Shown piece by piece: positions 2,263 through 4,309 of a stretch of 8,172 bases of DNA. The notes beneath the pieces were generated by a model. That model saw nothing but the letters and a program-made list of their open reading frames with translations, was not told the origin of the DNA and made no database searches. The stretch comes from a bacterium (lineage in GTDB: Bacteria > JAJVIF01 > JAGGVT01), in NCBI GenBank assembly GCA_021157815.1, contig JAGGVT010000183.1, forward strand, positions 1 through 8,172, read 5' to 3'. The translations under genes and the position numbers were made by a program. Numbering within the stretch: the first letter of the stretch is position 1; each line of letters starts with the position of its first letter.

Positions 2263-2313
2263 TCATGATAGTAAAGTTTCAATTTCTTCCAGAAGCACTG
2301 GCAAATCCTTTTA
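2263..2313 (-). pseudogene. In-frame remnant of the HepT C-terminus beyond a premature TAA
   Basis: After the TAA codon at 2311-2313 the same frame stays open for 15 codons (KDLPVLLEEIETLLS) and ends at TGA 2263-2265. In HepT relatives as I recall them, the WDII/WDVV segment is followed by a residue such as Gln, then a short linker and DLP plus a leucine-rich helix. TAA thus sits where one residue is expected, and a single C-to-T change of CAA would produce it. Confidence 0.7.
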
Positions 2314-2598
2314 TACTACATCCCATACAATCTTATCATCCACAAATGCATAACCATGCACCAGGATATTTCGAAAGGCGATTATTCGTTTGTAATTGCT
2401 TATGCGCATGACAATATCCGGATTCAACCGATGAAGTTTGGTCATTGCTTCGCCTATAATCTCAAATTGCCTTTCCACGCCGGATTTCAATAAATCATCA
2501 TGCATGTAGTTGTCAAAGGTCTTTCCTTCAGTAAAACGCCTGACTCGATCAGCAGCTTTTCTAATGTCCTCAAGGTGTTTTTTAGATTCAATTTCCAT
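2311..2598 (-). CDS. hepT: HepT-like (DUF86) toxin of an MntA/HepT system, truncated by an in-frame stop
   Basis: This is a small all-helical HepT/HEPN-superfamily protein. The open frame gives 95 residues from ATG at 2598, which overlaps the mntA end by 11 bases, so the two are probably translationally coupled. Longer upstream starts would run deep into mntA. The signature RNILVHGY at residues 76-83 supplies the RX4HXY motif: Arg76 and His81 are the RNase-type residues, and Tyr83 matches the tyrosine that MntA antitoxins AMPylate in studied systems. The frame halts at TAA (2311-2313) right after KIVWDVV. The next in-frame codons, down to TGA at 2263, read KDLPVLLEEIETLLS, the usual C-terminal helix of this family. 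Full length would be 111 residues, normal for HepT. The toxin has therefore probably lost its last helix by a nonsense mutation. Confidence 0.85.
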   Translation of the reverse strand: MEIESKKHLEDIRKAADRVRRFTEGKTFDNYMHDDLLKSGVERQFEIIGEAMTKLHRLNPDIVMRISNYKRIIAFRNILVHGYAFVDDKIVWDVV

Positions 2599-2896
2599 AA
2601 AGCAGAACTCGGTTTTGGTTGATTGATTCAAGGAAATACGGATTATCGATTGCACTTATCATAACCAGATCAATCGATCTATTGAAAAGAGCTTCAAGAG
2701 ATTCAAGCAAACCGAAGTAGGCATCGGCGTATTCACCAAACTCAAGAGGATGAAATTCAACAAGGAAATCAAAATCACTTTCGTCTGAATCGAAATCACT
2801 GGTAGCTGCGGAACCAAACAATTCCAATCGACTAACATGATATTGTTTACACAAATTCAGAATATTTCCGTGTTCCTTTTTTAATGCTTGAATCAT
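2588..2896 (-). CDS. mntA: MntA-like minimal nucleotidyltransferase (antitoxin)
   Basis: This 102-residue protein has a minimal nucleotidyltransferase fold. The active site is visible: LFGSAATSDFDSDESDFDFL contains Gly28-Ser29 followed by the Asp41/Asp43 pair, and Asp76 in RSIDLVM is the third acidic residue. The GS-to-DXD spacing is 11 residues rather than the textbook 10, as I recall for members with the AATXXFDXXXSDXDFLVEF pattern. In characterised pairs such an enzyme transfers AMP groups from ATP to a tyrosine of HepT and so neutralises it. The catalytic set is intact, so the antitoxin may still be functional although its toxin seems truncated. The ATG at 2896 has no evident Shine-Dalgarno. 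The gene lies 43 bases after the small membrane protein gene on the same strand and might share its transcript. Confidence 0.88.
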   Translation of the reverse strand: MIQALKKEHGNILNLCKQYHVSRLELFGSAATSDFDSDESDFDFLVEFHPLEFGEYADAYFGLLESLEALFNRSIDLVMISAIDNPYFLESINQNRVLLYGN

Positions 2897-2939: not shown

Positions 2940-3194
2940 CTATATAAGTATATCACGCAGTTGTAGTGAGTAGCCAACTTCCAAAACCAATCCCACCTTC
3001 TGGTATTCAACTGTTTTACGCCAGGGGACATAGTTGCCGAGGAAAAAACTAAGCGCGAAGACAATAATTGCAATTAGCGCAATTATCGCGAGAATCAGAA
3101 ACAGGGGATGTCGATATCGCAGCTTGTCCTCAGGCTCGATAAGTTCATCGTATAGATCCTCTTCCTTATCGCGAATTTCGTCCAGCTCATCCAT
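2940..3194 (-). CDS. Small single-pass membrane protein of unknown function
   Basis: I do not recognise the family. The 84-residue protein has an acidic, probably helical N-terminus (MDELDEIRDKEEDLYDELIE), a basic KLRYRHP patch, and one strongly hydrophobic segment at about residues 30-53 (LFLILAIIALIAIIVF). A tail of about 30 residues (GNYVPWRKTVEYQKVGLVLE and onward) follows. The charge pattern suggests N-terminus in the cytoplasm and tail outside. I chose ATG at 3194 because AGAGGT lies 5 bases upstream. The frame continues upstream to 3269, but only through the palindromic insertion, so those residues are unlikely to be native. It follows prs on the same strand and was probably almost contiguous with it before the insertion. 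The tail is short and could be a truncated domain, but I see no continuation. Confidence 0.6.
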   Translation of the reverse strand: MDELDEIRDKEEDLYDELIEPEDKLRYRHPLFLILAIIALIAIIVFALSFFLGNYVPWRKTVEYQKVGLVLEVGYSLQLRDILI

Positions 3195-3196
3195 AC

Positions 3197-3327
3197 AAGA
3201 CCTCTGAAAAAAGCTCATTCTATTGTAGCCCGGCTTCTCATTAGCCGGGAAAACACGGGTAATATCCACGCAATACCCCGGTTAATGAGAAACCGGGCTA
3301 CCAATTATTTCCTTTTTTCAGAGGTCT
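3197..3327. mobile_element. MITE-like palindromic insertion with flanking CCATAC direct repeats
   Basis: The outer inverted arms AGACCTCTGAAAAAAG (3198-3213) and CTTTTTTCAGAGGTCT (3312-3327) are perfect over 16 bp. Inner arms at 3225-3249 and 3277-3301 (GTAGCCCGG...CCGGGCTAC) match over 25 bp with two mismatches. The direct repeat CCATAC occurs at 3191-3196 and 3328-3333, immediately outside, and fits a 6-bp target-site duplication (7 bp if the shared T is counted). No transposase is encoded, so the element would be non-autonomous. It separates prs from the small membrane protein gene. Confidence 0.75.
3200..3205 (-). promoter_or_regulatory. Shine-Dalgarno AGAGGT supplied by the end of the insertion
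   Basis: On the minus strand AGAGGT is 5 bases before the ATG at 3194 of the small membrane protein. The site lies within the terminal inverted repeat of the 3197-3327 element. The presumed original site, GGTGA (3340-3344), is now on the far side of the insertion, 8 bases before the duplicated ATG at 3329-3331. Confidence 0.5.
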
Positions 3328-3346
3328 CCATACGTTAATTCACCAA

Positions 3347-4309
3347 CTATTTATCATCACTTTCATCTTCCGGGTCCAGAAAAACATGTGAGACTGATGC
3401 GCCTGTGTGTATGTTCTTAATCGCGTCACCAAGAATCTGCCCCACGCTTAAAACAGTCAGGTTGTCGATTGGCGGGTCGAGATTTACCGGTATCGTGTTG
3501 GTTACGATTATCTCCTTGAACGCTGATTTCTTCAGGTTTTCTTGTATTCCGTCTCCGAAAACAGGATGAGTAACAGCGGCATATATCTCTATTGCGCCTT
3601 TATCTTTAAGCGCAATCGATGCATCTTTCATGGTGCCGCCGCTGGCTATCTCATCATCGAAGATAATTACAGTTTTATCTTTGACATCGCCGAAAACGTT
3701 AAAGATTGTTACTTTCCCATTTTGTCGGCGTTTATCGAGAATTGCCAATGGGCATTTCAACCTGTGGGCGTAGCCGCGTGTTCTGTTTGCCCCGCCAACA
3801 TCCGGTGATACCGCGACTATATTCTCCAATCCCATTTGCTTGATATGGTCGGAAACTAATTTTCTCGCGAGCAGCTGATCGACAGGGCCATCGAAGAATC
3901 CCTGAATCGCTTCCGCGTGAAGGTCCATTGTGAGGATACGAGATACGCCTGCAGTTTTAACAAGTTTGCCGACAAGCGCGGCGGTTATCGGGATTCGAGG
4001 ATGGTCTTTCTTTTCACTGCGAGCGTAGGCGTAATATGGCATAACGAGCGTGATTCGCTTTGCACTCGCGCGCATAAGCGCGTCGGTCATTATCAACGCT
4101 TCCATGAAATTGTGATCAACGGGACGGCACGATGTCTGCACGAGGAAGACATCTTTCTCGCGGACGTTTTCCTTGATTTGGACAAACGTATTGTCGTTTT
4201 CGAAATACGTGAATTCGATTTCACCAAGAGGAATTCCGAGATAATCGACGATTTCCTGCGCAAGGTCAATTGAGGCGCTGCCTGCAAACACTTTTAAATT
4301 TTCGTTCAC
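3347..4309 (-). CDS. prs: Ribose-phosphate pyrophosphokinase (PRPP synthetase)
   Basis: This enzyme transfers pyrophosphate from ATP to ribose 5-phosphate to make PRPP for purine, pyrimidine, NAD, histidine and tryptophan synthesis in the cytoplasm. The 320-residue length is typical of class I enzymes. Visible landmarks are KVFAGSASIDLAQ at the N-terminus, VQIKENVREKDVF, DLHAEAIQGFFD with His131, VAVSPDVGG with Asp170, LDKRR (192-195) of the catalytic loop, and the PRPP loop IIFDDEIASGGT (218-226). Several positions depart from the E. coli pattern. The usual FSDGE is FENDN (36-40), YARQDRK is YARSEKK (95-101), and DDMIDTGGT is DDEIASGGT. It therefore belongs to a divergent branch. The start is GTG at 4309 with a strong GGAGGA four bases upstream; a longer frame is not needed. 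An M24 peptidase gene lies 101 bases upstream on the same strand. The assignment is secure; the effect of the substitutions is unknown. Confidence 0.95.
   Translation of the reverse strand: MNENLKVFAGSASIDLAQEIVDYLGIPLGEIEFTYFENDNTFVQIKENVREKDVFLVQTSCRPVDHNFMEALIMTDALMRASAKRITLVMPYYAYARSEKKDHPRIPITAALVGKLVKTAGVSRILTMDLHAEAIQGFFDGPVDQLLARKLVSDHIKQMGLENIVAVSPDVGGANRTRGYAHRLKCPLAILDKRRQNGKVTIFNVFGDVKDKTVIIFDDEIASGGTMKDASIALKDKGAIEIYAAVTHPVFGDGIQENLKKSAFKEIIVTNTIPVNLDPPIDNLTVLSVGQILGDAIKNIHTGASVSHVFLDPEDESDDK

Follow-up and report, generated by a model that had tools for sequence, protein, structure and literature searches.

The window, which is the whole stretch of 8,172 nucleotides analysed here, carries prs and a small gene on the minus strand, and a palindromic element lies between them. 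The features at this junction are as follows.

3347..4309, minus strand: prs, ribose-phosphate diphosphokinase (NF002320, 363.8 bits, cut-off 297)
2940..3194, minus strand: small gene (84 codons), product predicted from its hydrophobic stretch to be a membrane protein (MDELDEIRDKEEDLYDEL...) and assigned to no known family
3197..3328, no strand assigned: MITE-like element of 132 bp with ends A/GAGACCTCTG...CAGAGGTCTC, boundaries set by alignment with other genomic copies
3192..3196, no strand assigned: target-site duplication CATAC on the small-gene side (GTATG on the minus strand), carrying the present ATG at 3194-3192
3329..3333, no strand assigned: target-site duplication CATAC on the prs side (GTATG on the minus strand), carrying the ancestral ATG at 3331-3329
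3198..3213, no strand assigned: terminal inverted repeat arm 1, the 3' arm in a minus-strand transcript, complementary to 3312-3327 at 16/16 positions
3312..3327, no strand assigned: terminal inverted repeat arm 2, the 5' arm in a minus-strand transcript, covered by the mini-ORF
3340..3344, minus strand: ancestral Shine-Dalgarno-like GGTGA, read from the sequence, now before the mini-ORF
3305..3331, minus strand: mini-ORF METSEKRK (codons 3331-3308, stop TAA 3307-3305)
3200..3205, minus strand: AGAGGT contributed by the end of the element, with 5 nt between it and the present ATG

We found that 3197-3328 is a MITE-like insertion that doubled a start codon. The element is short, contains no gene and is bounded by terminal inverted repeats; its left terminal base is A, where other copies have G. 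Comparison of the copies also showed that the C at position 3328 is the terminal base of the element and hence lies outside the duplication. The duplication is thus CATAC, of 5 bp, and not the CCATAC, of 6-7 bp, of the preliminary description. The empty site reconstructed with a 5-bp or a 6-bp duplication has the same sequence because base 3191 is also C. On the minus strand this restored junction reads prs stop TAG (3349-3347)-TT-GGTGA-ATTAACGT (8 nt)-ATG-GATGAG. Apart from the boundary, the bases and coordinates quoted in the preliminary description were confirmed when the sequence was read again, as was its proposal that a palindromic insertion separated an old ribosome-binding site from its gene. 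It had also correctly seen that the start codon is present twice and that the old GGTGA now faces the METSEKRK frame with its stop at 3305-3307.

The restored junction contains an in-frame TAA (3337-3335) two codons before the ATG; therefore, the small gene could not have started any earlier than at this ATG. Because its codon score exceeds that of 95% of real-gene windows and that of all off-frame controls, the 84-codon frame is very probably a real gene. Among 59 genomes searched, the 84-amino-acid protein matched only its own, the other 58 yielding no homolog, and it gave no match in Pfam or NCBIfam. The three genomes of the same class lack the small gene, unrelated genes follow prs wherever its downstream flank was read, and no relative showed an empty site. 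The small gene is itself followed directly by a HepT/MntA-like type VII toxin-antitoxin pair (2311-2896, minus strand), with Pfam matches (HepT-like, NTP_transf_2) above the cut-off and NCBIfam matches below it.

Both candidate ribosome-binding sites have a better predicted pairing energy than the genome median. Against an assumed standard anti-Shine-Dalgarno sequence, not one read from the genome's own 16S end, predicted duplex energies were -8.0 kcal/mol for GGTGA and -7.0 kcal/mol for AGAGGT, compared with -5.1 as the median of 73 starts in the genome. The genome makes use of Shine-Dalgarno-like motifs: such a 4-mer was present at 33 of these 73 starts and in 15/73 when a control window was scored. 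Neither a sigma-70-type promoter nor a terminator was found in 3000-3600.

Folding of the element transcript gave -77.5 kcal/mol (z -11.2). In the free transcript AGAGGU is predicted to lie in a 17-bp terminal stem with an unpaired probability of 0.0, and the mini-ORF covers exactly the arm opposite to it. The earlier proposal that AGAGGT serves the present ATG is thus borne out in its spacing, which at 5 nt is good, but not in the service itself, since the motif is fully paired in the predicted stem. When pairing was forbidden on the 5' arm, some of the six AGAGGU bases reached 0.5-0.87 unpaired and others took new partners; when a ribosome was placed at the stop of the mini-ORF in the model, the majority of them were still paired with other partners. 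Because the mini-ORF lies over the opposite arm, its translation could open the AGAGGU stem, but folding predicts partial release only.

We propose the following course of events. A non-autonomous element entered the 15-nt gap that separates prs from the small gene, probably through a transposase acting on the GAGACCTCTG ends and leaving a 5-bp duplication. The start codon was doubled because the staggered cut fell on GTATG. The upstream ATG copy retained GGTGA and now opens an 8-codon frame ending in the element; the downstream copy would be the start of the gene, and the outward element end places AGAGGT 5 nt ahead of it. In a read-through prs transcript, the long hairpin of the element would bury AGAGGU, and ribosomes moving from GGTGA through METSEKRK would traverse the opposite arm and help to expose it. 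The small gene would thereby be translationally coupled to the mini-ORF. The insertion, the duplication and the geometry are shown by the sequence, whereas the use of AGAGGT, its masking and the coupling are suggested by the motif positions and the modelled folds. We consider the account as a whole (an insertion, a doubled start and a relocated start behind AGAGGT that may be coupled to the mini-ORF) to be likely.

The main rival is silencing: by splitting the unit formed by prs and the small gene, the insertion would have shut off the latter, with AGAGGU hidden by the hairpin, the ribosomes taken by the mini-ORF, and the frame open only as the event is recent. The complete pairing of AGAGGU predicted for the free transcript speaks for such silencing, and the perfect 5-bp duplication together with the nearly perfect terminal repeats suggests a young insertion. 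However, the 84-codon frame is intact with a strong coding signal, and AGAGGT stands at a good spacing by position. We regard silencing as possible but clearly less probable. The most economical reading is that the insertion was tolerated and the start relocated, perhaps with coupling to the mini-ORF.

It is more doubtful that translation starts inside the element, at the ATG 3218-3216 or the GTG 3269-3267, so that the element donated coding sequence and not only a ribosome-binding site. From 3269 onwards the frame runs open across the element and on into the gene, and a start at 3218-3216 would add 8 residues. There is also a precedent in MITEAba12, copies of which give the first four residues, MQQS (PMC6382973). 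Nevertheless, the ATG inside the element has a weak Shine-Dalgarno energy (-4.8 kcal/mol).

The insertion belongs to a new, multi-copy element family. BLAST identified 73 matches to the element in its own 3.2-Mb draft genome (221 contigs, 91% complete), and the 14-mer end AGACCTCTGAAAAA occurs there 54 times with at most one mismatch, compared to once for the reversed control. The copies share their ends at unrelated sites and leave a duplication of fixed length. At the family boundary, 7 of 20 paired copies have exact 5/5 duplications (CATAC, CTGAT, ATCTA, AGCTT, CTATC, TTTGG and ATATT), compared to 0/380 mismatched cross pairs; repeats longer than 5 bp matched in none of the 20. The preliminary description had proposed a search for further copies with these ends and 6-7 bp duplications; there are indeed many with the same ends, but the exact duplications among them are of 5 bp.

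No match to the element was found in any but its own genome in a BLAST search across 385 genomes, and the exact 20-mer end was absent from an 84,980-species collection, which may omit the genome itself. A prs query of genome contigs returned no relative, and Rfam gave no match. A partner transposase with GAGACCTCTG ends was not found among the DUF772 and DDE_Tnp_1 elements of the 91%-complete genome. The DUF772/DDE_Tnp_1 insertion sequences were rejected as partners because their ends differ: C90 has GGGGCTGTTGAAAAAG, C56 holds a degenerate relative, and C155 has GGTACCGTTGCAAAAG. Inspection by eye of the ORFs next to nine copies, mainly single-ended ones, showed no recognisable transposase. 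Separately, we note that C90:4771-5765 (L106) and C56 (L107) hold a degenerate DUF772/DDE_Tnp_1 insertion sequence, and that the C90 ends faintly resemble the MITE ends.

These data bear on two further readings. REP units at gene 3' ends are known to stabilise upstream mRNA, and the fold of the palindrome is very stable. On the first of these readings the palindrome would be a long-standing hairpin that regulates the prs unit or stabilises its mRNA (a REP/BIME function), and the CATAC repeat would have arisen by chance. This is very improbable, as six other sites have the same ends with 5-bp duplications of different sequence and three genomes of the same class lack the element. Least credible of all is an assembly artefact in which a many-copy repeat joined two unrelated contigs: the draft is in 221 contigs and the element is in many copies, but this copy differs by about 8% from its nearest relative, the 5-bp duplication is exact on both flanks, and the joined flanks give a well-formed gene junction.

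Additionally, we identified a second copy that abuts a start codon. At C175:8149-8300 (L126/L146), a family copy with a different core adjoins the start of a 248-codon gene (AGAGGTCTAA-ATG); it ends in ...TTTAGAGGTCTA, followed by AATGAATAATTC as the start of the 248-codon frame. An in-frame TAA stands directly before this ATG and excludes a start within the element in this case, which counts against an in-element start. On the upstream side, AAGAGGTTCGAGC-ATG-TAT-TTA-TCA-ATG-A (AAGAGG...ATG) runs into the element and stops as MYLSMRF. The duplication is plausibly AATGA, given a slippage loss of one GA of GAGAGA, and the insertion is probably the same kind of start-codon event. The arms of the C175 copy have diverged, and in the predicted fold AGAGGU is largely free save for its last two bases. 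The protein matched only its own genome among 97 genomes searched.

A third start-adjacent insertion was not found; the start-adjacent AGAGGTCTC at C167:4351 was rejected, having no element upstream. Of all intergenic positions, about 2.9% fall within the 0-10 nt preceding a start on either strand, or about 1.5% per outward end. We rejected an enrichment of insertions at starts, with two seen versus about one expected among 69 ends, and start-adjacent insertions show no targeting. The case at prs thus resembles a chance intergenic insertion that was tolerated, not a targeted mechanism.

The interior of the element (3225-3301) is an inverted pair of GTAG plus hairpin (GTAGCCCGGYTTCTCATTARCCGGG), consisting of two REP units, which the preliminary description had overlooked.

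3225..3249, plus strand: REP unit GTAGCCCGGCTTCTCATTAGCCGGG, GTAG plus a 7-bp hairpin, hairpin folded
3277..3301, minus strand: second REP unit, inverted, GTAGCCCGGTTTCTCATTAACCGGG, a REP consensus match, hairpin folded

Both units match the consensus exactly, and with at most three mismatches the consensus was found 98 times in the genome and never for the reversed control. The locus thus shows the tag, the hairpin, the inverted pair and the high copy number of REP/BIME sequences. Two GTAG-hairpin variants preserve the stem through a compensatory C-G/T-A change. Such units also occur without the outer ends: in the DNA fetched, a non-random sample, 27 GTAG units have a GAGACCTCTG end 26-28 bp outside them, whereas 40 have none at this distance.

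The genome encodes nine Y1-transposases, two of which are flanked by arrays of closely similar GTAACCCGG hairpins. What flanks the RAYT loci L066 and L067 is the related GTAACCCGG sequence; the exact GTAGCCCGG...CTCATTA type is not seen there. Other cores within GAGACCTCTG ends, likewise missed by the preliminary description, are GTAACCCGG units and the TTCCGGGCTTGACCCGGAATCC type, giving at least three core types overall. The core of the copy at C94:3448 is 100% identical over 28 nt to the array next to RAYT L066, and at C113 (17493-17832) a stretch of 45 nt is identical to the palindrome beside RAYT L068. As a separate observation, a palindrome of about 200 bp containing GAGCGAAGCGAAGGATCT splits REP cores at C35:15754, C38:22065, C62:3432, C146:28997 and C217:16271, making three nested layers.

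A fixed 5-bp duplication indicates a DDE-type transposase, and RAYT/IS200-type enzymes are not known to leave target duplications. Because of this, we infer that the composite was moved by a DDE-type transposase acting on the ends. A far-reaching extension can be formulated: one end set would repeatedly carry the REP hairpins of several resident RAYTs, as a two-transposase composite, and the ends would act as a portable, hairpin-locked ribosome-binding site, unlocked by the displaced-start peptide when the element lands on a start codon. We offer this as speculation that is rather unlikely to hold in full.

Correia/NEMIS, RUP, ERIC and Nezha are likewise short palindromic elements with terminal repeats that adjoin genes. 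Three of them, NEMIS, ERIC and Nezha, have been classed as MITEs (PMC3733652). Closer to the present case is MITEAba12 of Acinetobacter, a non-autonomous element of about 113 bp that has terminal inverted repeats and makes target duplications; several of its copies also adjoin gene starts and change the 5' end of the gene next to them (PMC6382973). MITEAba12 leaves 9-bp duplications, shares its ends with ISAba12 and contributes the MQQS codons and promoters (PMC6382973), whereas the present element leaves 5 bp, has no partner insertion sequence that we could find, provides a Shine-Dalgarno-like AGAGGT from its end and owes the start codon to the duplication.

The inverted GTAG-hairpin pair and the resident Y1-transposases resemble GTAG-type REP/BIME sequences and their RAYT (TnpA-REP) enzymes (PMC3733652, PMC2817692). 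However, REP units lack terminal repeats at their borders, and no target duplication is known for them, whereas here the pair sits 26-28 bp inside duplicating ends. REP units combined with unrelated terminal repeats have been described as the TIRtron/TIR repeats of RAYT-like genes (PMC3733652). In contrast to these, none of the nine Y1-transposase loci is bounded by GAGACCTCTG in the flanks examined, and the 5-bp duplication points to a DDE-type enzyme. In limited searches of the open-licence literature, we found no report of a MITE whose duplication doubles a start codon while its end provides a Shine-Dalgarno motif, nor of one end set around several RAYT-type cores.

Our analysis indicates that a mobile palindrome can shift a translation start without destroying the gene, with the duplication giving a second start codon and the terminal repeat a Shine-Dalgarno-like motif. 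The shared ends around RAYT-type cores also raise the testable question of whether two kinds of transposase act on one element. Further, if the hairpin lock and the mini-ORF work as proposed, a single transposition event would make a translationally coupled leader.
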